Assembly (NCBI GenBank): GCA_015056865.1
Contig: SVFM01000012.1
Coordinates: 1 to 64,000 of the forward strand
DNA length: 64,000 bases
Origin: Lachnospiraceae bacterium
GTDB lineage: Bacteria; Bacillota; Clostridia; Lachnospirales; Lachnospiraceae
Direction of reading: 5' to 3'
This document shows, in pieces, positions 253 through 18,769 of this stretch (its first letter is position 1; each line of letters begins with the position of its first letter). The notes beneath the pieces were generated by a model that was given only the letters and a program-made list of their open reading frames with translations, was not told the DNA's origin and made no database searches. The translations under genes and the position numbers were made by a program.

Positions 253-1430
253 ATGCATAATCATTGTATCAATAAACTTCTAAATATTGAAGGGGTAATT
301 GTAAAAAAGTTGTTCATGCGGATACTTTTGTGAAAATTGATCTGGAAACCACGCAAAAAGAACATGTTTGTCCTGCTTGCGGAGCCCTTACCAAGAGGAT
401 TCATGACTACAGAATGCAGACCATTAAGGACCTTCCCTTTCAGTTAAAGCATTGTTATCTTGTTTTGAAAAAGAGAAGATATGCCTGTTCCTGCGGAAAA
501 CGGTTCTACGAGGACTATGCCTTTTTGCCAAGATATTTTCAGCGGACATCCAGATTAACAGCCTTTATCGCTGCAACTTTGCACGATACTGCTTCTGTTT
601 CATCCATTGCTGAAAGGTGTAATGTATCTGTCTCCACCGTAAATCGTATTCTGGATACCATATCCTTTCATAGACCCACTCTTTCACGCACCATTTCTAT
701 TGATGAATTCAAAGGGAATGCAGGCGGTGAAAAATATCAGTGTATTCTGGTGGATTCGGTCAAACATGCTGTACTTGACATTTTACCTTCACGCTCGCAG
801 AACTTCCTGACCTCTTACTTTCGGGATATCCCCAAAAAGGAGCGTTATAGGATCGAGTTCTTCGTCTGTGACATGTGGCGTCCGTATACAGACTTAGCTA
901 AAACATTCTTTCCAAACGCCACCATTATTATTGATAAATATCACTTTATCAGACAGACTACCTGGGCCATCGAGAACGTGCGGAAAAGGCTGCAGAAAAC
1001 AATGCCGGCAAATCTACGCAAATACTATAAAAGAAGTCGTTCCCTCATACTCACACGTTATGACAAACTCAAGGACGATAACAAAAAAGCTTGTGATCTG
1101 ATGCTTCTTTACAACGACGATCTGCGGCTTGCCCACTATCTCAAAGAATGGTTTTATCGCATCTGTCAAAACCCAAAGTATTCCCAACAGCGGAAAGAAT
1201 TCTTTGATTGGATCTCCACGGCTGAACAATCAAAGCTTCCTGAATTCGAGAAATGTGCTGAAACCTACAGACATTGGAGTAAAGAGATACTGAATGCTTT
1301 CAAATATGCCCATATCACAAATGGACCGACAGAAGGTTTCAACAATAAGATAAAGGTTCTGAAACGTACATCTTATGGTATCAGGAATTTCGAACATCTC
1401 AGAACCCGCATTTTACTTACAACACGTTAG
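253..1430 (+). CDS. ISL3-family transposase, apparently needing a -1 frameshift
   Basis: This is the DDE transposase of the ISL3 element. The main frame (GTG 330 to 1430) has the ISL3 N-terminal zinc-finger-like CPACG and CSCG motifs, a helix-turn-helix near residues 85-110, and the family's catalytic core (DSV, the DMW segment, TNGPTEGFNNKIKVLKR near the C-terminus). The normal N-terminus lies in another frame: ATG 253, 9 nt after GGAGG (239-243), encodes MHNHCINKLLNIEGVIVKK and then hits TGA at 331. At 303-309 the zero frame reads A AAA AAG, a classic -1 slippery heptamer. Slipping there joins directly to VVHADTFVKIDLE and rebuilds a full protein of about 392 residues. The alternative is a one-base deletion that killed the gene. 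Confidence 0.85.
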
Positions 1431-1549
1431 ATACATAACAATCAAAGACTGGCACGAAGGTTTTCTTTGCATGCCTGAAAAAATGATTTTTTAATCCAAA
1501 CATTAAAATGCCCCGAAACATAGTAATGGGGCGGCATCCAAAAGAATAC

Positions 1550-1573
1550 CACCCCAACTCTTGACAAAGAGCC
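1550..1573 (-). repeat. ISL3 right terminal inverted repeat
   Basis: This is the reverse complement partner of 128-151, and it ends in the sequence AAGAGCC at 1573. The IstA reading frame resumes directly after it. Confidence 0.85.
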
Positions 1574-2238
1574 TAATTCGTTATCTGGTTTATTTAGAGG
1601 AAAAGCCTTATCTTCACGAACTGCCGGCTTTACCCTATGAAATCTGCGAGTGGAAGCATGGTGTAAAAGTATATCCTGACTGCCATATCGTATTCCAGAA
1701 AAATCATTATTCTTGTCCTTTCCATTATCGTGGCAGAGAGGTAAGTGTAAAGACCACCGACACACTCCTGGAGATTTATTATAACCATGAGCGCATTGCT
1801 ACCCATCCAAAGTTCCCTGCGTATCGAACAAACGGATGGAGTACTCATAAAGAGGATATGCCCGACGAATACAACCAGCCTGAAATGGATGAAAGCCGTA
1901 TCAAACGATGGTCTGCTTCCATAGGTGAAAATACTGCTGAAGTGATCGATCGCATTTTCCGCAGTGTAAACATAAAAGAACAGGGCTATAACTCAGCCCT
2001 GTCGGTCTTACATCTGGCAAAGACGTATTCCGAAGAGCGTCTGGAAATCGCATGTGAAATCGCCCTCGCCAGTATACGGGTACCCCGTTACCATCATCTT
2101 AAAGCGATTCTTTCCGGTAATCAAGACAAAGTTTATCTTGCCGGAAAAGAAGAAGCCGAAACCCGTCAAAAGAACAGTAACGTCCGTGGATATGTCCGTG
2201 GAGCCGCTTATTATGGAGGTTATGATGATGATAAATGA
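1574..2238 (+). pseudogene. istA: IS21-family IstA transposase, C-terminal fragment
   Basis: An open frame begins at the ISL3 right end and covers about 220 residues of the IstA C-terminal region: YLVYLEEKPYLHELP, PYEICEWKHGVKV, the beta-strand-rich segment with YSCPFHYRGREVSVK, and EQGYNSALSVLHLAKTY. IstA is normally about 500 residues, so the N-terminal HTH and catalytic core are missing here. Roughly 100 residues that should separate this piece from the fragment at 1-127 are absent, and that fragment lies on the other strand. The nominal TTG start of the open frame (1561) falls inside the ISL3 repeat, so it is not a real start. The gene cannot make a working transposase. Confidence 0.85.
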
Positions 2239-2974
2239 TGAAACCCGCCGCAAACTGGAAGAACTCAGTCTGGACGAAATGATACATGCGCTGGAGATCC
2301 AGTCAAGCCAACAGAGCTGCCTTACCCTTTCCTTTGAAGAAAGATTCCAACTCCTGGTTGACTACACATATCAGGAAAAATATACGAACAAGGTAAAACG
2401 CCTTGCAAAAGTGGCAAAGTTCCGCTTCCCACAAGCAAATGTAGATGACATCTACTATACTGACCGGCATCTGGACCGTAATAAAGTCTTAAGCGTTGCC
2501 ACTTGTCAGTTTATAAGTACCTGCACAAACATCATAATTGACGGTTTTACAGGTTCAGGCAAGTCATACTTAAGCTGCGCCATTGGCAAAGCAGCTTGCC
2601 GTCAGGGATATCGGACAAGATACATTCGCATGCCGGATCTGCTGCAGATGCATGATGAAGTGGCGACTACCGTGACCGGAGTATCAAAACTGATCAAAAA
2701 ATTTGAAAGTTATACACTACTGATCCTTGATGAATGGTTAGTAGATGACCTTTCCCGCCAGCAGGAACACTTTCTATTTGAACTGATTGAACGTCGGTAT
2801 ACTGATAAGAGTACCATCTTCTGTACACAGTACCGAATCGAAGACTGGCATGCCCGCTTAGGCGGCGGCATCCATGCGGATGCAATCATAGACCGCATCG
2901 TGAATAATTCAATCAAGATTTATTCCGGTGATCTTAACATGCGCCAGATCAAATCTGTAAGTATGAACGAATAA
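2228..2974 (+). CDS. istB: IS21-family IstB helper ATPase
   Basis: IstB is the AAA+ ATPase that works with IstA in IS21 transposition and target selection. The protein has about 248 residues, close to the usual 250. It contains a Walker A motif (GFTGSGKSYL), a Walker B motif (TLLILDEW) and the TQYRIEDWHARLGGG segment typical of IstB. Three consecutive ATG codons occur at 2222, 2225 and 2228. GGAGG at 2215-2219 gives the best spacing (8 nt) to 2228. The gene overlaps the end of the istA frame, as is normal in IS21 operons. It is intact, but its partner IstA is broken, so it is probably inert unless an intact copy exists elsewhere. Confidence 0.9.
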   Translation: MINDETRRKLEELSLDEMIHALEIQSSQQSCLTLSFEERFQLLVDYTYQEKYTNKVKRLAKVAKFRFPQANVDDIYYTDRHLDRNKVLSVATCQFISTCTNIIIDGFTGSGKSYLSCAIGKAACRQGYRTRYIRMPDLLQMHDEVATTVTGVSKLIKKFESYTLLILDEWLVDDLSRQQEHFLFELIERRYTDKSTIFCTQYRIEDWHARLGGGIHADAIIDRIVNNSIKIYSGDLNMRQIKSVSMNE

Positions 2975-3152
2975 ATAACAACAGTGTTAGGTACCGCTCT
3001 GCGGAGCGGTACTGACCAGCACATTGCTGGTACGGTTACTGCGGATAGGGAGTATCTAAAAATGCGATTCGTGGTACGAATCGAGTGGAATAATCAATAC
3101 ACCGGAAAGCGTGCACTCAATGTCCGTGCAGTGTGCGTTATCTCATCGGTAT
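2975..3152. other. Non-coding stretch with three short perfect hairpins downstream of istB
   Basis: No gene is seen. Three perfect hairpins follow each other: 2991-2999 with 3004-3012 (9 bp, 4-nt loop), 3015-3020 with 3026-3031 (6 bp), and 3065-3072 with 3076-3083 (8 bp, 3-nt loop). The right end of the IS21 element should lie here, but I could not define it. The hairpins could be IS subterminal structure or part of a structured RNA or DNA element. Confidence 0.5.
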
Positions 3153-3410
3153 TTACAGTTGTTTAAGAATCGGCACTTCAATAAATGAAACATCGGTATC
3201 CGGTACAGAGGGAGCCGGCAGTTCTTTATCTCCCTGCAGTCGGTTGTAGATTTCGGTTCTGACTTTACGTTGCCAGTAATAGTATTGATCTTTTGAAATA
3301 TCGTTCTCCAACAGCCATTCTTTGAGAAGCTGACCCTGTGGACGAGTATTGGCAACTTGAACAACTTGCGCCCAATTCCCCAATCTTATATCATATGTGT
3401 ATCTATCCAT
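3153..3410 (-). pseudogene. tnpA: IS66-family accessory protein TnpA, probably 3'-truncated
   Basis: The translation beginning MDRYTYDIRLGNWAQVVQ, followed by RPQGQLLKEWLLENDISKDQYYYWQRK, matches the small IS66 accessory protein TnpA, which precedes tnpB and the transposase tnpC. The ATG at 3410 is preceded by AAGGAGG with 10-nt spacing. The frame stops after about 85 residues at 3153, shorter than the usual length of about 110-120, and no tnpB or tnpC follows. The remainder of the element has been lost, so this is a remnant. Confidence 0.7.
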
Positions 3411-3510
3411 GTTTGTGCAACCTCCTTGAAAAAGTGTTTTGAGTTTTTTACATTTTTTCAAGTTTGCCACAAATTTTATATTTTGAAAAGGCGAGGCATT
3501 TGACGCTTAC
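3153..3510 (-). mobile_element. IS66-family element remnant (left end and tnpA only)
   Basis: Read on the minus strand, 3510 down to 3491 begins GTAAGCG, the conserved IS66 terminal sequence, and runs into a tnpA gene about 80 bp further on. Nothing of tnpB or tnpC is present, so the element is truncated at or near 3153. The left boundary at 3510 is reasonably firm; the truncation point is approximate. Confidence 0.7.
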
Positions 3511-3815: not shown

Positions 3816-4643
3816 TCAAATATGTATTATTTTTTCTTTATCTAGTGCACTATTTACAGTATCACTATCGAAATATCTTTTCAAATTATTCTTAACAGTT
3901 ATATTCCCTCCAGAATTATATGAATATATATATAAATTCTTTTTAACATCTTGTCCTTTATTACAAATGAAAAGCGCATTGTAAACCGCATCAACTAGAT
4001 ATAGATTACTTATTCCTTTTGTTTTTAATACGTCAAAAAATATCTTTGTCACATACTCATAATGTGTACATCCTAAAACAACAAACATTTTATTATAATT
4101 ATCAATAGAAGGAAATAGTTTCAATACCAATTGGTTGATTTTTTCAGGCAGTTCTTTAGAATACAATTCTTCTTCTATTAATCTTGCTAACCCTTTTAAA
4201 GGAATGCATATAATATTCTCTTCGCATATCCCACTTTCCAATAACCGTTTATGATAAAATCTTTCGCTCACTGTTAATTCGCTTGCAAAAATAAGTATTT
4301 TACTTCCTTCTTCGTAATTACTTATAATACATTCACTAGTAATTTCTATTATGTTATATACATTTTTTTTAAATAAAAGGGAAAATGATGTATTAGGATA
4401 TAATCCAGATAACGTATTACATGCAATTATAAGTTCCTCTGGTTCAAATCTTTTCGTAATATTATTCAAATAAAGTTCAAATTGATCAACTTTATCTTGG
4501 ACTGTCATATCATATTTAAATATAGGTAGCCTAACAAAAATAATATTGACAGCTTTACCACTAAACCGTTCTATGTTTTTAAAAACATTATACGCCTGTA
4601 GCAATCCTCCCCACCCCAAATCAATTGCAACTATATTGTACAT
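3816..4643 (-). CDS. Aspartate/glutamate racemase-family protein of the RiPP island
   Basis: This 275-residue protein has the features of the cofactor-independent Asp/Glu racemase (MurI-like) fold: an N-terminal AIDLGWGGLL segment (Asp8), a first catalytic Cys in IIACNTLSG (Cys75), and a second in VVLGCTHYEYV (Cys192). Family members interconvert L- and D-acidic amino acids by a two-base mechanism. Overall similarity to housekeeping MurI is weak beyond these motifs. The start ATG follows GAGGTAG and lies 7 nt after the stop of the upstream NDK-like gene, so the two are co-transcribed. In this setting it may supply or act on a D-residue for the peptide product, which is inference. It is the last gene of the island. 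Confidence 0.75.
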   Translation of the reverse strand: MYNIVAIDLGWGGLLQAYNVFKNIERFSGKAVNIIFVRLPIFKYDMTVQDKVDQFELYLNNITKRFEPEELIIACNTLSGLYPNTSFSLLFKKNVYNIIEITSECIISNYEEGSKILIFASELTVSERFYHKRLLESGICEENIICIPLKGLARLIEEELYSKELPEKINQLVLKLFPSIDNYNKMFVVLGCTHYEYVTKIFFDVLKTKGISNLYLVDAVYNALFICNKGQDVKKNLYIYSYNSGGNITVKNNLKRYFDSDTVNSALDKEKIIHI

Positions 4644-4650
4644 TAAATTT

Positions 4651-5235
4651 CTACCTCATAATAAAATACTTTTCCTCCTCTATTAGCTTTCTGGAAGGAG
4701 ATAAATAAGTAGCTAAATACTTGCATTCTCTTATTAGACTTCTTAAATCCGGGTCTGGCATATGTATATATGTAAATCTTTGAATTTGATAATAGCCTTT
4801 ATCACTTATCTTTTTATCCTCCTTATTATAATCATATTTTATATACAAAGTCTCATCCTTTTTCATAATTCTACCTATCGCATTTACATTAAGAAAATGA
4901 TATATACTTTCCACGTGTGCAACAGAATAAATATATTTTCTTAAATTGTTTTTAATCAACGAATTCCTAAGAAATAAATTATAATTAAATTTGTTAAATA
5001 TTATACATAGTGCTTTATTACCAAATAGACTCAATTCTGAAAAAAGCAAGTTCTCATAATTAAACACTCTCTCTTCACTGTCAAAATAATGAGCGTACAA
5101 TTCTCTACTCAATTGCATCCAGTTTTCTATTAGAAATACATCGCACTTACTTAAATCCAACTTTAAAAATCCTAATATTTCTTTAATGTAAATTATTCCT
5201 TCAGGTTTAATGATTAAAAAATTCCTAATCTTCAC
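4651..5235 (-). CDS. Nucleoside-diphosphate-kinase-like protein (divergent)
   Basis: This protein of about 194 residues is not an obvious family member at first sight. The N-terminus (RNFLIIKPEG, then ELYAHYF) and the later YIHMPDPDLRSLIRECKYL closely track the order of NDP kinase motifs: IKPDG, the LxxxHY helix, and the catalytic-His loop HGSDS followed by an amphipathic helix. His158 would be the phospho-accepting His, though the HGSDS loop reads HMPDP. I place the start at GTG 5235 because GGAGAAGGG precedes it by about 6 nt and the NDK-like fold begins there. The open frame extends upstream to a TTG without a ribosome site, and that extension encodes a possible membrane segment. Function is unknown; a phosphotransfer role is inferred. 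Confidence 0.55.
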   Translation of the reverse strand: MKIRNFLIIKPEGIIYIKEILGFLKLDLSKCDVFLIENWMQLSRELYAHYFDSEERVFNYENLLFSELSLFGNKALCIIFNKFNYNLFLRNSLIKNNLRKYIYSVAHVESIYHFLNVNAIGRIMKKDETLYIKYDYNKEDKKISDKGYYQIQRFTYIHMPDPDLRSLIRECKYLATYLSPSRKLIEEEKYFIMR

Positions 5236-5424
5236 GATTTCCCTTCTCCAAATAAAAACAAACTTATTCTGTTTAGTTTGTATATGTCGTTTTATTTCCT
5301 TATAAGTTACCACCATTGAACAAAAAATATAATAGGTTAAATACAACATAATAATACATATAAAATCGCCACTTAAAAAACTATAGTCTATTTTAACTCT
5401 AATATTTTTTATTAACAAACATTC

Positions 5425-6192
5425 TTATACTTGTTTTTTACAGATAATTTGATAATGATCATTTCCACAAAATCCATAGTTTTTTTCTATCCCTACAATT
5501 CTATATTGCTTATTTATAATTTTCTTTAAATATCCTAAATCAATTGGAGTATAATGAAACTCACCGGCTACTGTTTCCATTTCACCATTCCCCAAAGATA
5601 CCTTATGATATATTTGATTAATAATATATTTGTCCATTTGCCGTCTATAATAAGTATTTTTGATATATAGCCAGTCACCTTTTGACACATATGAAGAATA
5701 ATACGCTTTAATCTTCTTTTGAAACTTTATTCTATTTACAATATCTAAAATCAAGTATCCGTTTGGTTTTAAAATCTTAGAAATGTTGCTAAGCACATTT
5801 TCTAAATCGTTATAACTAGGTAGCCATTCCATGCTATTTCCGTAAACTACATCTTGCATGGGTAATATTCCATTTGCGAGTTCTTGCATATCAACCTTGC
5901 AAAAGTGATTATTAATGCTATTTCGATTTTTTTCTTTTGCCACTTTAATCATGCCATTTGAGAAATCGCTGCCATAAAACTCGCCTTTGCATTCTTTTGA
6001 AAGTCGATAAATGGTTTCACCTGTTGAACATGATATATCTAGAAACAGAGGATGGGGCAGGGCTATTTCACTCAACAGTTGAACTAAATAAGCAACTCTA
6101 TTTTCCGAGCATGGAGTACAAATATTATCATAAAATTCTGATATTTCATCCATAAAAAATTCTATTTCATTTGCTAAATACATTTTTTTCAT
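5425..6192 (-). CDS. Class I SAM-dependent methyltransferase of the RiPP island
   Basis: This 255-residue Rossmann-type methyltransferase carries motif I as LFLDISCSTGETIYRL (residues about 49-64; the usual GCGTG is CSTG here). An acidic FYGSDFS motif II follows, then a post-motif region with ILKPNGYLILDIV. Such enzymes transfer a methyl group from SAM to O, N, S or C acceptors, and the acceptor cannot be read from sequence. It lies downstream of the precursor gene and a hairpin, on the same strand as the rest of the island. The ribosome site before ATG 6192 is weak, suggesting lower expression than the precursor. AT-rich like its neighbours. Confidence 0.8.
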   Translation of the reverse strand: MKKMYLANEIEFFMDEISEFYDNICTPCSENRVAYLVQLLSEIALPHPLFLDISCSTGETIYRLSKECKGEFYGSDFSNGMIKVAKEKNRNSINNHFCKVDMQELANGILPMQDVVYGNSMEWLPSYNDLENVLSNISKILKPNGYLILDIVNRIKFQKKIKAYYSSYVSKGDWLYIKNTYYRRQMDKYIINQIYHKVSLGNGEMETVAGEFHYTPIDLGYLKKIINKQYRIVGIEKNYGFCGNDHYQIICKKQV

Positions 6193-6270
6193 ATCTTTTT
6201 GATTATTGCATAGAAATACTACTCTATACCCTCTTCTTCCTTCTTATTTATATATTTCTTTTTTACAGAT

Positions 6271-6318
6271 ATATAACCATGATGCCAGCATTCATTATAT
6301 TGGACATCATGGTTATAT
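6271..6318 (-). promoter_or_regulatory. Perfect 14-bp hairpin between precursor gene and methyltransferase gene
   Basis: ATATAACCATGATG at 6271-6284 is exactly complementary to 6305-6318, and the stem can be extended by CCA/TGG with one bulge. No run of T follows on the minus strand, so it is not a classic intrinsic terminator. It may be a partial terminator, or a stabilising or processing stem that keeps precursor mRNA in excess over the modifying enzymes, as seen in many peptide operons. Confidence 0.6.
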
Positions 6319-6362
6319 ACTCAGCTTATACAAAATGCAATCGTCCAATAGATCATATGTAA

Positions 6363-6485
6363 TTAACATACGTCGGAACAATAATTGCCGCCTAACTGAT
6401 AAGCCGCCTTTTTGTTGGATTTCTTTTCTAACTTAAGTAACTTTGTACTCTTCGGAAGAATTGCTTTTAAAAATAACTTTATCAT
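6363..6485 (-). CDS. Candidate RiPP precursor peptide (40 residues)
   Basis: This short gene is preceded by AAGGAGGTGAGAGC directly before ATG 6485, the strongest ribosome site in the island. It encodes 40 residues. The first 28 or so are rich in Lys and Leu (begins MIKLFLKAILPKSTK) and look like an amphipathic leader. Then comes AAYQLGGNYCSDVC, ending in Cys. The LGG resembles a leader-core boundary, leaving a seven-residue core NYCSDVC with two Cys, a Ser and a Tyr, suitable for YcaO (Cys/Ser or backbone) and radical SAM chemistry. It lies 68 nt downstream of the ycaO stop and upstream of the methyltransferase, the usual place for a precursor. The GG cleavage site is inference; no matching protease is present nearby. 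Confidence 0.75.
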   Translation of the reverse strand: MIKLFLKAILPKSTKLLKLEKKSNKKAAYQLGGNYCSDVC

Positions 6486-6553
6486 GCTCTCACCTCCTTA
6501 TCTTATACTCAGTAGTGTTTAACGTCCCTCTTCAAGGACAAATTTTATAAAAA

Positions 6554-8143
6554 TCAATAATATATCTTTTCCATTACTTTTTTCCATTCTATGTATTTGC
6601 ACTTTCTATTTAAAAAGCATTCGTTACAATTGGGACAACGCGGAGGTTTGAGATACTTCATCAATTTATCTATCTCTTTTTTAATATTTTTAGTACTTAT
6701 TCCTTCATAATATCTCTGTAAAATACTTTCCTCTCCACTAAGGTATGCAGAAATAATAAACAAATTTTTAAAATCTAAGTCAAAATAATGCGACAATCTA
6801 TAATTATCTGCATTAAAGCAATTTGATGGTTTCTGCAATATCATACATCGAATATCCATCGCACATTCACGATATTCATTGACTGTTTTTTTAATAGACC
6901 ATGGATTGAAATATACTTCTTTCAATTTTTCAAATAATATTCTTCTAGCAAAATCATTATCATTCAGTAAATCCACTTCTGACAAACCTGGAATGTATAC
7001 TCGATACACTTTAAAATGATCTTTTGTATACTCTTTAACGTAAATATTATATTTTTCCTTTTGGCATACTCCTATCAAGTATTGCAAACACTCACTATTT
7101 GTCTTTTTATTAACAAATGGTAATTTATCTTTTAATATCGAGTATGTATTTAGAAAAAATGTCGGTGCTACCATTCCATTATTACTTACATAACACTTCA
7201 TCCAATTAGAATTTACAAAAGAACTTCCATAAAATTCTTCGTATTCCTCATAACAACTATTTAGGGGCTTAAATTTATATTTCAATTGTCTTTTGGATAG
7301 TCCTTGAAAGAGTTCTGTGATACATCTTTGTACAGCAATCTCAAATATCGGATCAGCTCCAACGTTAATTTGATAGTTGCCTTTTTTGTCATATATCACC
7401 AAGCCTACTACCGGAAAAATTCCTAGCGAAAAATCCCTTAATTCATATGTATAACCCCAATTTTTTAACCAACCCAGTTTTTCATCCAATGATTGTCCCA
7501 CATCAATTATCGGCACTGAAAGTTTTTTAGTAATTATTGTTCTATAACAGTAACGTTCCAGCACTTCACATATCCCCTGTACCAACGCCTCTTCTGCACT
7601 ATTCCCAGCACATAATCCGTTAGTATGTGTTACATAATTAATCAAGGTGATTGGCAAATAAATTTTTTGTCCGGATATTAAATCATAAAATGGTGCTTTC
7701 TTCCGAAATTTTTCATCTTCCTTTATAGCATTCCACAAATACTCCCTCTCTTTAATATTTGGAAATAAATAGCCATCTACAATTGTATTGAACTCGCTCC
7801 AAAAAATATAAGAATCACAAATCAACTCATCATCAAAACTAAAATTATCCCGATCTTTATTGAAATAAGACGCTTTCAAAAGAAACCCAGACAAAAATCG
7901 TTCCATAAACTCTGAATATGCACTTGCTATAGCATATCTTAAATTAATACCCTTACCATTAACTCCAACTCCTGGAATATTATATAACTCAAGACGGACT
8001 GAATAAAAGTGTTTTGTTCGCAAAATCTTTACTATTCTTGTTTTAACCTTTCTTTTCTTTAATTCCTCTTTTATTACTTTTATTGTTGAAAGCGGATCCC
8101 TATCCTTTCTTGTAACATTAATATCCTGCAAGTATCTATTCAT
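6554..8143 (-). CDS. YcaO-domain enzyme with a C-terminal four-Cys motif
   Basis: YcaO enzymes use ATP to phosphorylate peptide backbone amides, giving azolines, thioamides or amidines. This 529-residue protein has the GKG...SAYSEFMER segment (residues about 63-82) and the ATP/Mg-binding block TNGLCAGNSAEEALVQGICEVLERY (about 174-198). It has no fused or neighbouring E1-like partner protein. The C-terminus lacks the proline-rich tail of azoline-forming cyclodehydratases; instead it carries Cys503-X2-Cys506-X2-Cys509-X5-Cys515, a possible metal or Fe-S site. The start follows AAAGGAG with 10-nt spacing, and the gene begins 4 nt after the stop of the PEP-synthase-like gene, so the two form one operon. 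Confidence 0.85.
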   Translation of the reverse strand: MNRYLQDINVTRKDRDPLSTIKVIKEELKKRKVKTRIVKILRTKHFYSVRLELYNIPGVGVNGKGINLRYAIASAYSEFMERFLSGFLLKASYFNKDRDNFSFDDELICDSYIFWSEFNTIVDGYLFPNIKEREYLWNAIKEDEKFRKKAPFYDLISGQKIYLPITLINYVTHTNGLCAGNSAEEALVQGICEVLERYCYRTIITKKLSVPIIDVGQSLDEKLGWLKNWGYTYELRDFSLGIFPVVGLVIYDKKGNYQINVGADPIFEIAVQRCITELFQGLSKRQLKYKFKPLNSCYEEYEEFYGSSFVNSNWMKCYVSNNGMVAPTFFLNTYSILKDKLPFVNKKTNSECLQYLIGVCQKEKYNIYVKEYTKDHFKVYRVYIPGLSEVDLLNDNDFARRILFEKLKEVYFNPWSIKKTVNEYRECAMDIRCMILQKPSNCFNADNYRLSHYFDLDFKNLFIISAYLSGEESILQRYYEGISTKNIKKEIDKLMKYLKPPRCPNCNECFLNRKCKYIEWKKVMEKIYY

Positions 8144-8147
8144 AAAA

Positions 8148-9875
8148 TCATTGCTCCTTTAGAATCCTAACAGTTCCGTTATCTCCATCGACTTCCAAAC
8201 GTCCGCCATTCCATATACATTTCATATTCTTTCCACCTATGCCCGTAACGCATGGAATTTCTAACTCCCTTGCAATAATCGCTGCATGGCATAACATTCC
8301 CCCAACCGCTGTTACCAATCCTGATGCGTTTTCTAAAATATCCAACCAATCAGGATCCGCAAACCATGCTAATAGTATATCTCCATCTATCCATTCAACT
8401 TCGCGAAAATTTTTACCCAAGAATTTAGCATTTCCCGATACACATCCCCCAGACACAGGAACTCCTACAATAACAGAGGTCTCCATTTTATATTCTTTTT
8501 GAATTTGTTCAAGTATTTGTTTAGTAATCGGTCTATATTGTAGAAAATAAATTTGATCGCCTTTTATACACCATTCTATATCTGCTATTTCTCCTATCGC
8601 ATTTTGGAACGCAATTATGGAACACGCAATTTTATCAAATACTTTTTCTCCCTCCCTCTCTGTCTTACTTGTACCTTTCCATATCAAACTTTTGGGGATA
8701 ACTTTCCCTGAAACAAGTTTAGCACCATTTCCCTCACACCATTCAAAAACACCTTCTTCTCTTTGCACCCCCATCCATACTCCCGCCTTATCTGGCTCTA
8801 TATAACTTTGAATAATAACTGCCATTTCTGGATATTTTTTTATTTCATGAATTTCTAGATACTTCTTAACTCGTTGATTATCAATCGAATCAAGGACATC
8901 TTTTACCCTCTCAGCCAAATTTTCAAAACTCACGTCCAGAAAAGAATCAAATATTCCTGCAAAAGAGTATGTTATTCCATCTTCGCAACTTGCAGAGCTT
9001 CTTACCGCATATTTCATTCTTTTATCTAGTACAGCAAATGTCTCTTGATTTATATTTCTCCCTATAGGAATTACCCAAGCAGAAGGAACATTATATCCTT
9101 CTGAATTTAACATAGCCAATCCTAGCGCTTTTCCTCCTACAAGTGAAACCAATTCTTCCCGAACTCCTGCGATATAATAGCATGACAACAAATCTAATGA
9201 AATTAACTCCAATTTAGATAGATAGTGCATCGCCCTCTTAATTAAAGTTTTTCTATGTAGTTTCATGAGATTATCTTCGTTTTCTTTTATATATTTTTTT
9301 TCTACTGCATAAAAAGGTCTAATATTTTGTAAAGAAAAACTTCTCTGTTCATCTTGCCACTTTTTCATAATCAGATATTTTTGAGCGGTATCTGAACTAA
9401 AAACCTCACTTTGTTCTATTTTTTTGTCTTGCTCTATAAAATTTCTTTGCTTAACATCCTTTGAAACATTTTCTTTATCTAAACGTTTTAATACTTCCAA
9501 ATAATTTTTACCAAAATCTCGAATTATCATTTGTTCTATTTCTTCACTAAATGCACTATTTTCGTTAAATGCTTCTAAAAGACAAAAATATGCCAAAGCA
9601 CCCAAATAACAATCCATCCTCTTGTCTTCATCAGTTTCTCTCTCTGCATTTTTTATTTTTTCAACACACAATTTCCGCATATTAATAAAGTTTTCTTCGA
9701 CAACTTCTGATGAATCTGTTGCATGCATTTTTTCAATAAACCATTCTACATCTTGTTTGAATTTGCAATCATACAATGCTTGCAATAAAAATCTAAATTT
9801 AAAAGTCTCAGCCTCATCTGAAACAAATCCATCTACGAGTTGGTAAAATTTCTTAAATTCATTTACACTAAACAT
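8148..9875 (-). CDS. PEP-synthase-like ATP-grasp/phosphohistidine-swivel enzyme
   Basis: This protein of about 575 residues has an unknown helical N-terminal domain (about 1-220), then a pyruvate-phosphate-dikinase-type ATP-grasp domain with LVGGKALGLAMLNSEGYNVP, KYAVRSSASCEDGITYSFAG and ADIEWCIKGDQIYFLQYRPIT. A C-terminal swivel domain follows, with the catalytic His in GGMLCHAAIIARELEIPCVTG (His about 530). The PEP/pyruvate-binding barrel of PEP synthase is absent, so it resembles the ATP-grasp plus swivel parts of rifampin phosphotransferase. It probably moves phosphate from ATP to His and on to an unknown acceptor. I chose ATG 9875 (MFSVNEFKKF) because AAGGAG precedes it; the frame stays open to 10013. 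Confidence 0.75.
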   Translation of the reverse strand: MFSVNEFKKFYQLVDGFVSDEAETFKFRFLLQALYDCKFKQDVEWFIEKMHATDSSEVVEENFINMRKLCVEKIKNAERETDEDKRMDCYLGALAYFCLLEAFNENSAFSEEIEQMIIRDFGKNYLEVLKRLDKENVSKDVKQRNFIEQDKKIEQSEVFSSDTAQKYLIMKKWQDEQRSFSLQNIRPFYAVEKKYIKENEDNLMKLHRKTLIKRAMHYLSKLELISLDLLSCYYIAGVREELVSLVGGKALGLAMLNSEGYNVPSAWVIPIGRNINQETFAVLDKRMKYAVRSSASCEDGITYSFAGIFDSFLDVSFENLAERVKDVLDSIDNQRVKKYLEIHEIKKYPEMAVIIQSYIEPDKAGVWMGVQREEGVFEWCEGNGAKLVSGKVIPKSLIWKGTSKTEREGEKVFDKIACSIIAFQNAIGEIADIEWCIKGDQIYFLQYRPITKQILEQIQKEYKMETSVIVGVPVSGGCVSGNAKFLGKNFREVEWIDGDILLAWFADPDWLDILENASGLVTAVGGMLCHAAIIARELEIPCVTGIGGKNMKCIWNGGRLEVDGDNGTVRILKEQ

Positions 9876-10059
9876 ATTACGCTTTCTCCTTATCATCTTT
9901 TTCACATAGGCATTTGTTGAATACGTCAACCTCTTTATTTTACTAGGTCTTCTTGTTCCATATATAATATTCTCTCCGCTTATAGCAAAATATAAGTCCC
10001 CCCAAAATCCCAATCGCTAATAGAGCGGAAAAATTATGGCTATAAAATATCATCAGAGT

Positions 10060-10632
10060 TCACTTAAAGATACCTTTTCAGACTCCTCTACTCTAACCCC
10101 GTCTTAAATGACTTTTTAAGGATCATCCAAATTTTGATCCCTCCATTTTCTTTGGATCGGCTTTTGACCGCAAGATTATATATGATTTCCTTATGAACGC
10201 CTCGGTTTTCAGAAGGTACTAATCCCTCATAATCCGAGAAATGAAAGTTCTCCTCTCAAAAATGTGGAATTTAACTAGTATAGATACCCTGCCTATCCTG
10301 AAGATTCTACTCATTCCATGAAATACTGTAACGCTACCAAAGAAAACGAACGCTCTGACCGGGTAAAACAAACCTGCTCTATAGTCTACATGAAAAACGG
10401 AAAACGGCCATGTGATTGTCCAAATCTCCATAACTATGCACAAAAGGGCCGAACCACTTATACATATGATTACATTGGATCTTCACAGGTCTCCCGTAGC
10501 CATTGTGTTGCTGGAAGAAAATCTCATAACCATGCAACTACCAAAGTAGACATTTTTCTGGCGGCAGTCATCACCATCCAACCAACTGAAATTTTTACCC
10601 ATAGAATGAACCAGCCAGACTACATACGCTAG
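10060..10632 (+). pseudogene. Decayed DDE transposase remnant inside the RiPP island
   Basis: On the plus strand, patches of a DDE transposase of the type common in Clostridia can be read: DPSIFFGSAFDRK near 10138-10180, VLIPHNPRNESSPLKNVEFN up to a stop near 10278, then YRYPAYPED, MKYCNATKENERSDRVKQTC and QKGRTTYTYD (10318-10470). The order matches the family pattern of a substrate-strand segment, a P-NPRN motif, and a K-GRTTYTYD Cys-region. Stops and frame changes interrupt it, so it is dead. The 104-codon open frame at 10318 is only the longest surviving piece. It lies between the two halves of the island and faces the other way. IS family assignment is uncertain (IS1182- or ISNCY-like). 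Confidence 0.6.
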
Positions 10633-10672
10633 GAGCATATATTAATTACCCAATTTTTTTATTTATTGATGC

Positions 10673-11830
10673 CTATTCTCTAATTACCATGCATTTTCGT
10701 GAATTATTATTCTCCATTTGTAGTACTTTCAAAAATTCGTACCTTTCTTTTTTTTTCCATAACTCATCCAAATTGTGTTCAAGTAGGTTACCAAGTTTTG
10801 ATTTTTCAATAAATGGACAACACAACAAATCACCTCGATGATTAATTGTTGCCTTTCCTATCCCTGCAGAACACTTCCACTGTTCATTTCCTAAAAAGTA
10901 ATTTCCTTTACTGGTTATTTTATAAATTTCACTATCGTCTTGTCCATCTGGAATTTCGGCATATAATATTTCAGTTTCCCCGATATCATTAACTATACTA
11001 CTCAGTTGTCTCATTAATTCTTTACGTTCACTAACCGTTACTTGCATCTTCTCATTTGCTCGTCCTTTTATAATTAAGTTTGACAGTTGTACTTGGTCCA
11101 CCCCCATTTTATGTAGATAACTAATCAATGCACCTATACAGCCTATATTTTTCTTCATTATAACTGTATTAGTTACTAATTTATACCCATGAGAAATAGC
11201 ATATTTGATGCCCTCTATACTCTTTGCAAATGTCCCTTTGCCTCTTATCTCATCATGTATTTTCTCATTTCCGTCAATGCTTACTGAAAAATGTAGCAAA
11301 TGTTTAGTTACATCTGGTAATTTATCTATAAATTCTTTTAATAGTATTCCATTTGTAAAAATCAACACACTAACGCCACTATTCATCAACATAGTAACAA
11401 TATTCTCTATCCCTTTCACAAGAAGAGCCTCTCCACCACTAATTGTTACTTCCATTATTCCTGCACTAATTATATCATTAGCCACTCTCTTGAGCAATGA
11501 ATCCTCCAAATCAGTATTCTCATGATCATTAGCATTTGTATAGCAATGTTCACATCTTAAATTGCATCTATTTGTAATTTTCCATTGTACTTTCAAAGGT
11601 GCTTTTATTTGTATGTTACTCTCATAGTATTCAGGATTAGCTATCTTTTGATTAATCTCTTTAATATACCGATTAATTTTTAGTGTGGACTTTTGATGTT
11701 TCTGCTTAAACCGAGCAATATTACTATCTTCTAATGCTTCTAACAATTCAAAAGTAAATCTATTAACCACATAATACTCTCCATCAAGATTAATAATCAA
11801 TTCATCATTAGAATTTTCACAAAACTTCAT
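10673..11830 (-). CDS. Radical SAM peptide maturase, SPASM-like, C-terminus possibly clipped
   Basis: This radical SAM enzyme has about 385 residues. The cluster motif CNLRCEHC gives Cys89, Cys93 and Cys96, followed by VTISGGEALL and the FSVSIDG segment typical of peptide-modifying SPASM proteins. The N-terminal 40 residues (ELIINLDGEYYVVNRFTFELLEALED) resemble a PqqD-like peptide-recognition fold. The C-terminal half contains WKCSAGIGKATINHRGDLLCC and GNLLEHNLDELW, but the protein ends at SRKCMVIRE, just where the last SPASM cysteines (CxxC...C) would be expected. About 40 nt beyond lies the transposase remnant, so the 3' end may have been replaced. ATG 11830 follows GAGGGGGG; the gene overlaps its upstream neighbour by 14 nt, indicating coupling. 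Confidence 0.8.
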   Translation of the reverse strand: MKFCENSNDELIINLDGEYYVVNRFTFELLEALEDSNIARFKQKHQKSTLKINRYIKEINQKIANPEYYESNIQIKAPLKVQWKITNRCNLRCEHCYTNANDHENTDLEDSLLKRVANDIISAGIMEVTISGGEALLVKGIENIVTMLMNSGVSVLIFTNGILLKEFIDKLPDVTKHLLHFSVSIDGNEKIHDEIRGKGTFAKSIEGIKYAISHGYKLVTNTVIMKKNIGCIGALISYLHKMGVDQVQLSNLIIKGRANEKMQVTVSERKELMRQLSSIVNDIGETEILYAEIPDGQDDSEIYKITSKGNYFLGNEQWKCSAGIGKATINHRGDLLCCPFIEKSKLGNLLEHNLDELWKKKERYEFLKVLQMENNNSRKCMVIRE

Positions 11831-13100
11831 TGCAACCCCCCTCATTTATTTCAATTATATTATCAACATAAAGCGCAACTAACAATTCTATCAGTTTCTC
11901 TTCATCTACAATATGGCGTTTTTTCTCTATAAACTCTTTCCCAGTCATCCTGCCATCTATTGAACTTATTATATCAAAAATTTTGTTTGAACACTTAATA
12001 ATTGGATTTGAATGCATATAATAATCTTTGCCGTTCTTGCTGATTCTTTCAAGAGTTAATACTATTCTTTTTTGACTAATTTCTTCCCACATATCATTCC
12101 ATTTTCTTTTAACCTCTTGATCACACATATGTTCCCAAAATTTTCCATCATTTTCTGCTTTACAACCTGCCTTACATTTAACAAAATCAAGACAAACTTT
12201 ACATTTTGCAGGTAGCCATTGTCCACTTTTAAACTTTTTTAATTCTTTACATCTCCATACCCGTTTAAATGAGTCACTAAATATGTTACCCAATACTATA
12301 CTGGAAGAAGGACATATTTTTACATCTCCATTTGTTTCTATTGCTGCTATCGTTTGCCCTGCACTACATCCATGAGTAAGGTATCTATACTTCTCGTCAA
12401 CTAAACATGGGGCGACACAATTACTTATCCGGATATTATACCCATCATTTTTCAACATATATACATAATTCAACATATTTTTTAAATCTGTCGGGTTTAC
12501 TTTTTTGCCTTTACCAACATAATTTAATCTTGCCACATTAAGAGAAGCTTCGTTCGCTCTACAAATTTCCGCAATATGTAGTAATTGTTCAAGACTATTA
12601 TTATGACTACACATTGTATAGTTTACAACAATATAGTTATTATGTTTAGTTAAACATTCAATTGCTTGCATGACCTTCTTATATGCTCCCTTATAATGCA
12701 TTATCTCGTCATGCGTTTTTTCATCACCATGCAAGGATATACCAACTGTATTAAAATACGGAAGAATTTTTTCATTTTCCTTAATCAACAAACCATTAGT
12801 TACTAAAATTTGAGAAAAATTATATTGATTTGCTATTTCAACCATATTCTTTATTTTCGGATGCATCAATGGCTCACCACCAGTATAAACCACATTGCTA
12901 ACCGATATCTGATTCAAATCATTCATTAGCGCGCAAAAATTCTTTTCCGTCATATAATTCAAATTACGTTCTTGAGAACAAAAGTCACAATCACAATTGC
13001 AATTATCTGTAATCTTTAAATAAACTGTCGTCGGATAAGTAAGTGTATTATAATTATATTTGAAATTTAAACTTCCTAAGTCATATGCACTTGCTCTCAT
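11817..13100 (-). CDS. Radical SAM/SPASM peptide maturase
   Basis: This 427-residue enzyme belongs to the radical SAM superfamily. CNCDCDFC supplies the CxxxCxxC cluster (Cys34, Cys38, Cys41), VVYTGGEPLMHP follows, and GISLHGDEKTHDEI is the usual third strand. A complete-looking SPASM region has HGCSAGQTIAAIETNGDVKI, GNIFSDSFKRVWR and CKVCLDFVKCKAGC, so it probably binds auxiliary Fe-S clusters. The last 90 residues (VLTLERIS... MTGKEFIEKK) look like a PqqD-like winged-helix domain. Such enzymes form thioether, C-C or other crosslinks in peptides, and the exact chemistry cannot be read here. The start codon overlaps the end of a 45-codon ORF. Confidence 0.85.
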   Translation of the reverse strand: MRASAYDLGSLNFKYNYNTLTYPTTVYLKITDNCNCDCDFCSQERNLNYMTEKNFCALMNDLNQISVSNVVYTGGEPLMHPKIKNMVEIANQYNFSQILVTNGLLIKENEKILPYFNTVGISLHGDEKTHDEIMHYKGAYKKVMQAIECLTKHNNYIVVNYTMCSHNNSLEQLLHIAEICRANEASLNVARLNYVGKGKKVNPTDLKNMLNYVYMLKNDGYNIRISNCVAPCLVDEKYRYLTHGCSAGQTIAAIETNGDVKICPSSSIVLGNIFSDSFKRVWRCKELKKFKSGQWLPAKCKVCLDFVKCKAGCKAENDGKFWEHMCDQEVKRKWNDMWEEISQKRIVLTLERISKNGKDYYMHSNPIIKCSNKIFDIISSIDGRMTGKEFIEKKRHIVDEEKLIELLVALYVDNIIEINEGGCNEVL

Positions 13101-13468: not shown

Positions 13469-14227
13469 TTACTTTCTGCGGCAGGGCACCGCCAGTGTAA
13501 ATTCTATCCAGTTTTCCCCATTCTTTACCAGCTTCCGGCCCTGAATGCTCCAGCCCCGCTCATGGCAGACCTTCTTTGCCTGGTGCAGACCCAAGCCCCT
13601 TCCTCTTCCCTTGCTGCTCTTATGTGGATGAAACCAGGTCATCATTTCACTGTACTTCACCTCTTCACTTCTATTCTGCACAGCAAACAGGTACTCGTTT
13701 TCCTTCTCACTGATCAACAAAGCAATTCTATTTTGCTCGCCATCCTCTTGCCTTGCTTCCGCTGCATTATCCAGAAGCACACCCAAAACCTCTACCATTC
13801 CATGCAGCATACAATCCTTCGGTAATTCCGATACATGGACTTCTAATTCTACAGGGATCCCGTCCTCCTCCAACTCAGAAAGCTTCTGATACAAAAAGCC
13901 AGTCAGGGCGTTAGTACCCATTCTTAGCAACTTACTGTACTTATGGTCCTCTATCAGGATATGTCCATACTCCTTTTGCAGCTTTACCCATTCCTCATGA
14001 CTGCCGCATACCCTATGTAATCCTATGAGCGCACTCAGATGATTCATAAAATCATGCTGTCTAAGCTGTACCCCTTTCACCAACTCTTGATAAGGTTTAA
14101 ACGCATCCTTCTGTAACGAAAGTTCCTTCTCCAATTCCTCTATCTTTTTCCGGTCTTTTTGGTGCAATGACCTATAATAGATCAGCCCCCATATTAGACC
14201 CAGCACCAAGACTGTTGCTATCAACAT
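13469..14227 (-). CDS. AgrC-like (GHKL) sensor histidine kinase with a minimal membrane anchor
   Basis: This 252-residue protein has one N-terminal transmembrane helix (residues about 2-18), a short coiled coil (about 22-42), an H-box QLRQHDFMNHL with His58, and a GHKL ATPase with N-box LLDNAAEA (Asn154) and G-box KGRGRGLGL (about 206-213). AgrC and related kinases normally have six transmembrane helices for peptide sensing; these are absent here. No response regulator gene is adjacent. It sits just upstream of the RiPP island but is separated from it by a terminator. AGAGG precedes ATG 14227. A hairpin at about 14247-14270 lies in the upstream region. Whether it regulates the island is speculation. 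Confidence 0.8.
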   Translation of the reverse strand: MLIATVLVLGLIWGLIYYRSLHQKDRKKIEELEKELSLQKDAFKPYQELVKGVQLRQHDFMNHLSALIGLHRVCGSHEEWVKLQKEYGHILIEDHKYSKLLRMGTNALTGFLYQKLSELEEDGIPVELEVHVSELPKDCMLHGMVEVLGVLLDNAAEARQEDGEQNRIALLISEKENEYLFAVQNRSEEVKYSEMMTWFHPHKSSKGRGRGLGLHQAKKVCHERGWSIQGRKLVKNGENWIEFTLAVPCRRK

Positions 14228-14957: not shown

Positions 14958-16214
14958 TCACTGCCCATAAAACACCTTCATAATCTTTACAGCATATTCC
15001 GTGTCCTGCACCCCGGCGGTCTCCACCGCGGAATGCATGGCCAGCTGCGGCAAACCGATGTCCACCGTATTCACAGACACGTGCCCGGTTGAAATATTTC
15101 CCAGCGTGCTGCCCCCTGCAATATCCGAACGATTGGTGTAAGTTTGGCAAGGTACCCCCGCCAAATGACAGAGATGTTTCAAAAACCCTGCTGATATGGC
15201 ATCTGTGGCATATCGCTGGCTGCCGTGATATTTGAGTACAATTCCACCGTTTAAGTACGGACGGTTGGTTGGATCCGCCTTTTCCGGGTGATTGGGATGC
15301 ACCGCATGGGCATTATCTGCTGAAATCATAAAACTCTCCGCGATCATTCTGTGGTATCCAGCTCTGCTGATGTTCAGTGCCTCGCAGATCCGTGCCAGCA
15401 CATCCTCCAAAAAGGTAGAACCGGCCCCCTGCTTGGTACCGCTACCCACTTCTTCGTTGTCAAACACTGCACACACATTGATATACTCTGTGGGCTCACT
15501 CTCCGACATTGCAAGAATAGATGCATAAGCACACTGAAGATCATCCAGCTTGGGAGATACTACAAACTCCCCGGCCGCCCCCACAATTCTTCCTTTTTCC
15601 CGTACATACAAGAACAGATCGTAGCTTAAAATCTCCTTTTTCTCTACCCCTGCTGCCTTTGCAAGATATTTCATAAAAGTGCCCTTTTTTCCGGCATAGA
15701 GAGGCAACAGATCCACCTGGGGATTGTTCTCACTGGCCGTACAGCCCAGATGGGGTGCTACAGAAGGGATGATCAGCAGGTCTTTATCAACATTGACCAG
15801 TTTGGTCACTATCTTCTCTCCCTGCAAAATACTGACTCTTCCTGCCACAGACAAAGGCCGATCCATCCAGGTAGACAAAATAGGTCCCCCGTATTTCTCC
15901 GTGTTCAGCTTCACATAATGCCCCTCTATCTCCATCTCCGGATTTTCCTTTACCTTAAAGGACGGGGAATCGCTGTGGGATGCCACAAAGCGAAAGCCTC
16001 TGCTACTCCCCCGAGGAATCGCAAACGCAATGCAGGCAGAGCCGTTTCTGGTGGTAAAATACTTCCCTCCCGGTTCCAGCTGCCATTCCTCCTGCTCCAT
16101 AAGCTCTGTAAATCCGGCGGCCAGATAAATTTGACGCTGTCCTTCCACGACATGAAAACAGCTGGGACTATTCTCTATGAATTTCAACAAGTCTCTTGTG
16201 ATCCGATTTGACAT
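14958..16214 (-). CDS. apeB: M18-family aminopeptidase
   Basis: The 418-residue protein matches bacterial M18 (aspartyl) aminopeptidases. It begins with LLKFIENSPSCFHVV and has the metal-binding His in ASHSDSPSFKVK, GPILSTWMDRPLSVAGRV, PKLDDLQCAYA (metal Asp), FDNEEVGSGTKQGA (catalytic Glu pair) and a C-terminal H-VSVNTVDIGLPQLAMHSAVET. The enzyme is a cytosolic zinc exopeptidase removing acidic or neutral N-terminal residues. AAAAAGGAG precedes the ATG. The symbol is a family-level assignment. Confidence 0.9.
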   Translation of the reverse strand: MSNRITRDLLKFIENSPSCFHVVEGQRQIYLAAGFTELMEQEEWQLEPGGKYFTTRNGSACIAFAIPRGSSRGFRFVASHSDSPSFKVKENPEMEIEGHYVKLNTEKYGGPILSTWMDRPLSVAGRVSILQGEKIVTKLVNVDKDLLIIPSVAPHLGCTASENNPQVDLLPLYAGKKGTFMKYLAKAAGVEKKEILSYDLFLYVREKGRIVGAAGEFVVSPKLDDLQCAYASILAMSESEPTEYINVCAVFDNEEVGSGTKQGAGSTFLEDVLARICEALNISRAGYHRMIAESFMISADNAHAVHPNHPEKADPTNRPYLNGGIVLKYHGSQRYATDAISAGFLKHLCHLAGVPCQTYTNRSDIAGGSTLGNISTGHVSVNTVDIGLPQLAMHSAVETAGVQDTEYAVKIMKVFYGQ

Positions 16215-16347
16215 ATTGCTACACTCCTTTTTACTAATAGACGATTTTGCTTAGTATATCATAAATTTTGGCGCCCTTCCATAGGATATGTCCTTTACTT
16301 TCCCCATTTTCTGGTATAAAATGTAATTTGTTTGGAGAGTGATAGAG

Positions 16348-17076
16348 ATGAACAGAAAAAAAAGAACCACTTACTTTTTAAAAGGTATGAGAGACGGCCT
16401 TCCCATCGGTATGGGCTACATGGCGGTAGCATTTACCATGGGTATTGCCTGCAGAAATGCCGGCATGACAGTTTACCAGTCCGGTTTTATGGCTTTCTTA
16501 CTGCATGCCTCTGCCGGAGAATTTGCTGCCATTTCCCTGATCGTGGCTCAGGCCGGCATTTTAGAAATGATATTTACCCAATTTGTGATCAACCTACGAT
16601 ATATCCTTATGTCCTGTTCCCTGTCACAGCGACTGGATGCCAAAATGCCCTTCTTCCACCGCTTCCTTCTGGCCTTTGCCCTGACGGACGAGATTTTTGG
16701 CATTTCCATGAGCATGCCGGGTAAACTGGAACCCTTTTATAATTATGGTGCCCTGACTGTGGCTGTACCCGGATGGGTGGCAGGCAACGTGCTGGGCCTT
16801 TTACTGGGAAACATTCTGCCTGTTCAAGTGGTGAATGCCCTTGGCATTGCCCTCTACGGCATGTTCCTGGCAGTGATTATACCTGCTGCCAAGAAAAACC
16901 GTGTGATCCTGGGGCTGATCATCGTGACCATGCTGGCCAGCAGTCTTTTTGCGGTGCTGCCCGGCATCCGGGAGCTGTCTTCCGGTATTCGCATCATCAT
17001 TTTGACTGTGCTGATCGCAGGTGCAGCCGCGTTCCTTTACCCTATAAAGGAAGAATCGGAGGTGTCGCATGAATAA
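16348..17076 (+). CDS. azlC: AzlC-family amino acid exporter, large subunit
   Basis: This hydrophobic protein of about 242 residues has GMRDGLPIGMGYMAVAFTMGI near its start and INLRYILMSCSLSQRL, both characteristic of AzlC, the large subunit of the branched-chain amino acid exporter AzlCD. About seven membrane segments are visible. The frame opens at GTG 16339, but GGAGAG at 16334-16339 fits ATG 16348. The 3' end overlaps azlD by 8 bp, so the pair is translationally coupled. Expected role: export of branched-chain amino acids or analogues across the inner membrane. Confidence 0.9.
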   Translation: MNRKKRTTYFLKGMRDGLPIGMGYMAVAFTMGIACRNAGMTVYQSGFMAFLLHASAGEFAAISLIVAQAGILEMIFTQFVINLRYILMSCSLSQRLDAKMPFFHRFLLAFALTDEIFGISMSMPGKLEPFYNYGALTVAVPGWVAGNVLGLLLGNILPVQVVNALGIALYGMFLAVIIPAAKKNRVILGLIIVTMLASSLFAVLPGIRELSSGIRIIILTVLIAGAAAFLYPIKEESEVSHE

Positions 17077-17383
17077 CCTAAACTTTCTTTACATAGCCAT
17101 CATGGGGCTGGCCATTTATCTGGTGCGCATGCTTCCCCTGGTACTGCTGCGCAGGGAGATTAAAAATGTATATCTGCGCTCCTTTTTAAGCTACGTTCCC
17201 TATGTAACCTTGGCAGCCATGACCTTCCCCGCCATTATTACCGCTACCGGAAATATCATTTCCGGTATAGTGGGACTTGTCTGCGCTGCGATCATCGCCT
17301 ATGTGGACGGTAATCTGTTCAAGGTTTCCGTGGGTGCCTGTCTGGCTGTCTTTGTGACAGAATTTATTATGGGTCTGTTATAG
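17069..17383 (+). CDS. azlD: AzlD-family amino acid exporter, small subunit
   Basis: This 104-residue membrane protein has three or four hydrophobic segments and the AzlD pattern YLVRMLPLVLLRR, SFLSYVPYVTLAAMTFPAI. It partners AzlC encoded immediately upstream and overlapping by 8 bp. It converges on the thioesterase gene, whose stop is at 17385. Confidence 0.9.
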   Translation: MNNLNFLYIAIMGLAIYLVRMLPLVLLRREIKNVYLRSFLSYVPYVTLAAMTFPAIITATGNIISGIVGLVCAAIIAYVDGNLFKVSVGACLAVFVTEFIMGLL

Positions 17384-17384
17384 A

Positions 17385-17792
17385 TCATTTCTTAAATCCG
17401 GTGATATTGGCTACCGCCACCTGGTTGTCCAGTTCATCACTGATCAATACCTGGTAATAGCAAGTGCTCCTGCCATCCTTCAGGCAATGAGCCTCGGCAA
17501 TCAACTTTTTCCCTTTCACAGCGCCCAGATAAGCAATATCGGAGTGCAGCGACACAGTCCTGCGCTCTTTCCAGTTATTGGCCACCGCAAAAGCAAAATC
17601 CGCCAATATATAGTGCACGCCACCCATCACGCCGCCCATGGCATTCATATGTTGCTTTGTCAGCTGTACACTGCACTTTGCATAACACTCCCCAAATTCC
17701 TCTATCACGGCTCCGTTCATGGTTGCAAAATGGTCCTGGCCAAAAATGGCACGCACCTCATCTATTACTTTTTCATCCGTTACGATCTGCAT
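17385..17792 (-). CDS. PaaI-type hotdog-fold thioesterase
   Basis: The 135-residue protein shows the hotdog thioesterase arrangement: HMNAMGGVMGGVHYILADFAFAVA (the catalytic-helix region with the GG-H-D layout), HSDIAYLGAVKGKKLIAEAHCLKDGRSTCYYQV and a final VAVANITGFKK strand. Members hydrolyse acyl-CoA thioesters such as aromatic or short-chain acyl-CoAs. The substrate is not known here. It shares orientation with the MBL gene upstream, 26 nt away, so the two may be co-transcribed. Confidence 0.8.
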   Translation of the reverse strand: MQIVTDEKVIDEVRAIFGQDHFATMNGAVIEEFGECYAKCSVQLTKQHMNAMGGVMGGVHYILADFAFAVANNWKERRTVSLHSDIAYLGAVKGKKLIAEAHCLKDGRSTCYYQVLISDELDNQVAVANITGFKK

Positions 17793-17818
17793 GATTTTTC
17801 TCCCTTTATCCAGATGAT

Positions 17819-18640: not shown

Positions 18641-18721
18641 TCTGATTCCCGGCTCCCTTCAATTTTTTCACTAATTTTCAATGTATCACACTCTCCGGTA
18701 AAAATCAAATATTGTCAAAAG

Positions 18722-18765: not shown

Positions 18766-18769
18766 TTTT

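Follow-up and report, generated by a model that had tools for sequence, protein, structure and literature searches.

We identified, in the genome of a gut Lachnospiraceae bacterium, a 40-codon ORF that is best explained as the precursor of a RiPP modified by a YcaO enzyme and two SPASM radical SAM enzymes, a reading that the sequence comparisons below make likely. Judged by gene content, the cluster is of the YcaO plus radical SAM RiPP kind, which is already known, and what is new is its unusually fixed nine-residue C-terminal core. The ORF lies in the window, the whole 64,000-nucleotide stretch analyzed, within a minus-strand block (~3816-13100) that encodes two radical SAM enzymes (rSAM-B and rSAM-A), a PPDK-like protein, YcaO, the peptide, a methyltransferase, an orphan protein and a glutamate-racemase-like protein (Table 1).

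Table 1. Positions of the predicted cluster features in the window and of the counterpart peptide gene at the second locus, L054
Feature	Position	Strand	Evidence or remark
Glutamate-racemase-like protein, divergent	3816..4643	-	TIGR00067 1.5e-15, 57.3 bits, cut-off 146.65; PDB 3uhf 2e-8
Orphan protein, start 5418 or 5346	4651..5418	-	No Pfam family, no PDB sequence match
SAM-dependent methyltransferase, window-specific accessory	5425..6192	-	PF13649 2.5e-12
Perfect 15-bp inverted repeat, 20-nt loop, between peptide and methyltransferase	6270..6319	-	
Conserved core GGNYCSDVC and stop TAA, 9 codons	6363..6392	-	8/9 residues as in the L054 peptide
Putative precursor peptide gene, 40 aa, MIKLFLKAILPKSTKLLKLEKKSNKKAAYQLGGNYCSDVC and stop	6363-6485	-	Translation; counterpart L054:14401-14529(+)
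Shine-Dalgarno site AAGGAGGTGA	6490..6499	-	10/10 match in upstream 20 nt
YcaO enzyme, 529 aa	6554..8143	-	PF02624 2.1e-40; PDB 4q84 8.1e-22
PPDK-like protein (ATP-binding and His-carrying mobile domain), window-specific accessory	8148..9872	-	PF01326 9.7e-27, PF00391 3.4e-19
rSAM-A, CxxxCxxC and truncated SPASM, alternative start 11845	10673..11827	-	PF04055, PF13186
rSAM-B with SPASM	11817..13100	-	PF04055, PF13186
L054 putative precursor ORF, GTG start, 42 residues, ending GGNYCSDIC	L054:14401-14529	+	AAGGAG 7 nt upstream

The first-pass annotation had proposed a short ORF with a near-perfect ribosome site between ycaO and the methyltransferase gene, and translation of the minus strand bears out this position: 68 nt separate the ORF start from the YcaO stop, and 170 nt lie between its end and the methyltransferase start (6192), with all three genes on the same strand. 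The ribosome site was also as described. Its match to AAGGAGGTGA was the best among 758 small ORFs of the 64-kb window (ATG-started, 20-70 aa, nested starts tallied apart). When the gap between the YcaO and methyltransferase genes was shuffled 20,000 times with dinucleotides preserved, an ATG ORF of 35 aa or more on the same strand turned up in 2513 of them, which makes the length of the precursor ORF by itself unremarkable, while such an ORF with a Shine-Dalgarno score of at least 9 arose in two shuffles. The pattern of the C-terminal tail occurred once in the window, even with three mismatches allowed, and in none of 100 shuffles.

A second locus, L054 (CASJPF010000021.1, a Lachnospiraceae MAG), came from a scan of an 84,980-species genome collection with a profile built from seven YcaOs, of which the best 80 loci were listed. 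Its genes are ordered ABC ATPase, two ABC-2 permeases, YcaO, a 40-codon ORF, rSAM-B, rSAM-A and peptide, and those for YcaO, the two radical SAM enzymes and the peptide run in a single direction. Among the best 80 loci listed, L054 was the sole one with radical SAM homologues better than 1e-18 (5e-68 and 4e-65), and the next-best locus reached only 1e-18 for rSAM-A and 2e-12 for rSAM-B. The set common to the window and L054 comprises the peptide, YcaO (30% identical), and the two SPASM radical SAM enzymes rSAM-B (32%; L054:11878-13119) and rSAM-A (36%; L054:13196-14344). The additional 40-codon ORF of L054 (11749-11871, plus strand) overlaps the end of the YcaO gene and extends to just before that of rSAM-B; it has no Pfam match, and no counterpart was noticed in the window.

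Comparison of the two peptides revealed that their tails, GGNYCSDVC in the window and GGNYCSDIC in L054, are identical at eight of nine residues, and that the nine codons differ by three synonymous changes in addition to the one Val/Ile replacement. None of 5000 shuffles aligned as well as the two full peptides, whereas for the leaders without the tail 850 of 5000 did, i.e., no similarity was detectable; the leaders are even of opposite charge (pI 10.4 in the window vs. 4.1 in L054). The chance expectation of the tail pattern in L054 is nil (0 in 100 shuffles, up to two mismatches), and, three overlapping copies of the window left aside, L054 alone among 131 loci had the pattern. The earlier proposal that the C-terminus would be conserved over the leader in clusters sharing the enzymes therefore held at this one second locus. 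At both loci a small precursor gene adjoins genes for peptide-modifying enzymes and the core is constrained relative to the leader, as expected of RiPPs, and the peptides, on these two loci, which are both from Lachnospiraceae, form by sequence a family of RiPP precursors whose core is constrained; L054 may be a lucky pick out of the best 80 loci listed. An ORF arising by chance, with a coincidental tail match in L054, might draw on the readiness with which shuffled gaps yield ORFs of this length and on the unrelated leaders, but it is strongly disfavoured, indeed extremely improbable, given how rarely shuffling reached the ribosome site, the absence of the tail pattern from shuffled L054, the position of the L054 peptide gene directly 3' of two homologous radical SAM genes and the synonymous codon changes in the tail. 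By these comparisons a chance or decaying ORF cannot account for the tail conservation, while a precursor with a product-fixing core can.

The L054 comparison also refined two descriptions of the peptide. The first part of the window peptide is Lys/Leu-rich, as had been described, but the acidic L054 leader indicates that this is not a family trait. Likewise, the seven residues after GG do contain two Cys, Ser, Tyr, Asn and Asp, yet the conserved block is not this seven-residue core but the nine residues GGNYCSD[V/I]C. We considered GG as a double-glycine cut site for a C39 peptidase and rejected this, given that PF03412 matched 8 of 14 control genomes but nothing in the window genome, which is 97.8% complete. 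In view of this result, and of the conservation of GG next to leaders that are not conserved, we count GG as belonging to the constrained block; it is probably not a cleavage site and is perhaps part of the product. No leader-cleaving protease or exporter for the window peptide was identified. L054 carries an ABC-2 exporter, and its permease family had no match in the window genome.

The nearest NCBIfam model to the window YcaO is NF040716 (E. coli YcaO), and the available part of PMC13063428 describes E. coli YcaO as thioamidating uL16 and places the non-acidic members of its group in RiPP contexts. Unlike the uL16-thioamidating enzyme, for which an acidic pI and an equivalog-level score are expected, the window YcaO scored 136.9 bits against a cut-off of 700, is basic (pI 8.97) and is adjoined by a precursor peptide gene. 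The YcaO tails end in EKIYY and IGLWT and so lack a PxPxP C-terminus. Azol(in)e-forming YcaO systems (LAP/TOMM) have an E1/ThiF-like partner in the cluster and a PxPxP C-terminus on YcaO. No E1/ThiF-like partner was found in the eight window proteins among the matches listed, nor did any of the eight match TfuA, the partner protein of thioamitide-type YcaO-TfuA systems; the contig breaks off where the window begins on the left, and a TfuA gene may lie beyond it. Given the basic YcaO, the lack of an E1/ThiF or TfuA partner in the window, and the descriptions in PMC13063428 and PMC10352776, we take a thioamide or amidine to be the likeliest YcaO product, ahead of a canonical azole, although we regard this assignment as roughly an even call.

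In a YcaO tree (98 rows, quick method), L054 paired with L037, a locus without the tail motif, and was not the sister of the window, which fell into the same loosely supported group as L054 and L037; branches were long. We noticed a cysteine cluster (CPNCNEC...C), a possible metal site, near the C-terminus of the window YcaO, which the YcaOs of L037 and L054 share and those of L047 and L048 share in part. Other YcaO loci had candidate precursors of their own. A candidate with a different core is found in L037 (516-635, plus strand) beside a subtilase-like gene, two ABC transporters and YcaO, a 45-residue Cys-containing candidate in a Bacteroidales YcaO cluster (L052:12587-12724, plus strand), and an ORF for a Nif11-like leader peptide at L039:7010-14521, together with two YcaOs and radical-SAM-like and methyltransferase-like genes that were named by eye.

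Both radical SAM enzymes have the sactipeptide maturase SkfB as nearest solved structure. In rSAM-A the CxxxCxxC motif (C88, C92, and C95) and three more cysteines (C319, C337, and C379) are invariant, as are the CxxxCxxC motif of rSAM-B (C34, C38, and C41) and the full set of its seven SPASM cysteines (C232, C245, C263, C300, C303, C309, and C313). The combination of SPASM/twitch radical SAM enzymes with a Cys-containing core is that of sactipeptide and ranthipeptide systems. In contrast to SkfB systems, the window core is very short and at the extreme C-terminus, a YcaO is present, and a thioether is only predicted. Sequence searches detected no RRE domain in the cluster; the N-terminus of rSAM-A appeared RRE-like by eye only, with no Pfam or PDB sequence match.

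PQQ and mycofactocin also derive from a very short, strongly conserved core that is acted on by a SPASM radical SAM enzyme, and to our knowledge neither pathway includes a YcaO. The window core differs from theirs, and the two radical SAM enzymes scored 88.6 and 82.1 bits with the mycofactocin radical SAM (MftC) model TIGR03962, below its cut-off of 265. The available part of PMC10352776 describes YcaO plus radical SAM RiPP clusters of Bacteroidales, namely ItfA/ItfB and BGC8 of Porphyromonas gulae, which likewise have a small ORF beside genes for YcaO and a radical SAM enzyme; there, YcaO ItfB is cited for a C-terminal backbone amidine, and thioethers are proposed for BGC8. As described there, BGC8 has one radical SAM enzyme, a 61-residue precursor and a C39-type transporter, whereas the window encodes two SPASM radical SAM enzymes and a fixed tail of nine residues, two of them Cys, and its genome gave no C39 peptidase match.

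The accessory genes appear specific to the window, as no homologue of the PPDK-like protein, methyltransferase, orphan or racemase-like protein was found in the best 80 loci listed. The PPDK-like protein has a GGMLCH motif at residue 524, and the racemase-like protein keeps both Cys motifs, CNT (residue 75) and GCTH (residue 191). The orphan protein had no match in plasmids or phages and matched 5 of 101 genus genomes, its own included, the other four only at E values of 0.003-0.009; a resemblance to nucleoside diphosphate kinase, suggested by eye, was not supported by Pfam or PDB sequence searches. The inverted repeat is a possible RNA-processing or attenuation hairpin; its fold has a z-score of -1.81 (8 of 200 shuffles equally stable), it was not called as an intrinsic terminator, and an Rfam search returned nothing.

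In the collections searched, the cluster was found at two loci only. A direct peptide search of 397 family genomes gave 35 at E <= 1, its own included, and the best other E value, 0.052, was at chance level. YcaO was matched in 5 of 397 family genomes at 1e-20 (the best other 33% identical) and 6 of 391 class genomes at 1e-25, its own included in both counts; no relatives emerged when genome_contigs and viral_contigs were scanned with a single YcaO sequence, and all 24 plasmid records were below 60% identity (best, 27%). The rSAM-A profile matched 1 of 38 genomes of the L054 genus, 2 of the 17 genomes behind the chosen loci (1e-30), and, at 1e-40, 1 of 138 genomes of the window genus, its own. 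In 329 family genomes, which apparently overlap largely with the 397, the core pattern with up to two mismatches matched 14 genomes, exactly only that of L054, and the reversed control pattern gave 8 matches. Of the 13 inexact hits, 9 were examined in frame and 5 for their surroundings, and near these 5 no homologue of the eight window proteins was found. In viral_contigs the core pattern gave no match, even in a looser form, and the radical SAM profiles gave none apart from four remote hits for rSAM-B in one search; no precursor peptide was found in plasmids or phages.

The block also differs in composition from DNA nearby (GC of 27-36% at 4001-13000 vs. 46-51% at 15001-20000, in 1-kb windows). 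Given that an rSAM-A homologue at 1e-40 occurs in no other genome of the genus draw, the low-GC block looks horizontally acquired. The left side of the window (330-3470 and the start) contains genes for an ISL3 transposase, the C-terminal piece of a Mu-type (IS21 IstA-like) transposase, and IstB, and the window starts at base 1 of its contig (82,811 bases), which bounds the region beyond the racemase gene. About 800 bp between the PPDK-like and rSAM-A genes (9873-10672) have no recognisable gene; this stretch is possibly a mobile-element remnant, with no similarity in the loci compared except the window's own copy.

We propose that the leader would recruit the enzymes, that YcaO would activate a core backbone amide using ATP, and that the two radical SAM/SPASM enzymes would put in cross-links through the two core Cys, for which we lean slightly towards thioethers. 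A protease encoded outside the cluster would then remove the leader and release a short product of about nine residues or fewer, which in the window the methyltransferase, PPDK-like, racemase-like, and orphan proteins may decorate. The window and L054 clusters probably make the same compound; with four window proteins lacking a homologue in L054, the product of the window may nevertheless be a different one. Since the leaders have drifted and the core has not, we regard a defined small molecule with a conserved partner, such as a metal ligand, cofactor or signal, as the probable product rather than a diversifying toxin, and a cofactor-like product is favoured over a bacteriocin-like one. More specifically, and tentatively, GGNYCSD[V/I]C could be the core from which YcaO and two SPASM radical SAM enzymes make a new small molecule of fixed structure in gut Firmicutes. 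This RiPP would be cofactor-like or metal-binding, and its window version would be tailored by a PPDK-like ligase/kinase, a methyltransferase, and a repurposed glutamate racemase.

Two other products were weighed, each of which we consider rather unlikely. The tail could give a metal-binding product, a metallophore or buffer in which a thioamide or N,S-rich donor joins the two Cys, methanobactin-like and made by different enzymes; two Cys with Tyr, Asn, and Asp within nine fixed residues of a constrained core, and the ability of YcaO enzymes to yield thioamides (available part of PMC13063428), are consistent with this, but the cluster proteins scanned included no recognisable metal regulator, receptor or importer, none of the eight matched an MbnB/MbnC-type family, and radical SAM cross-linking would use up the thiols. 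Alternatively, the product could be a peptide signal or narrow bacteriocin, as in radical SAM RiPPs with Rgg-type regulators. L054 encodes both a large HTH protein (HTH_3, 3.4e-14) and an ABC-2 exporter upstream of its enzymes, signals fit short conserved peptides, and the clusters are patchy and, in the window, IS-flanked. The window cluster lacks an adjoining matching regulator, the only sensor gene nearby being that of a GHKL-domain protein (13469-14227) of uncertain relevance, and a bacteriocin would be expected to have a more variable core.

Most RiPP precursors found by genome mining have variable cores. Here the leader has been replaced entirely and the core left unchanged between clusters whose enzymes share about one third of their residues. 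A literature search returned nothing for YCSDVC-like strings and no paper that links YcaO with glutamate racemase, radical SAM enzymes, and a precursor peptide; the cluster ties PPDK-like and racemase-like enzymes to a RiPP context, a link for which that search found no publication. The peptide offers a very small, easily synthesised substrate for probing the order in which YcaO and two radical SAM enzymes act. A core that stays fixed while the leader is swapped is the mark of a product for which the exact structure is important, as in known peptide-derived cofactors.
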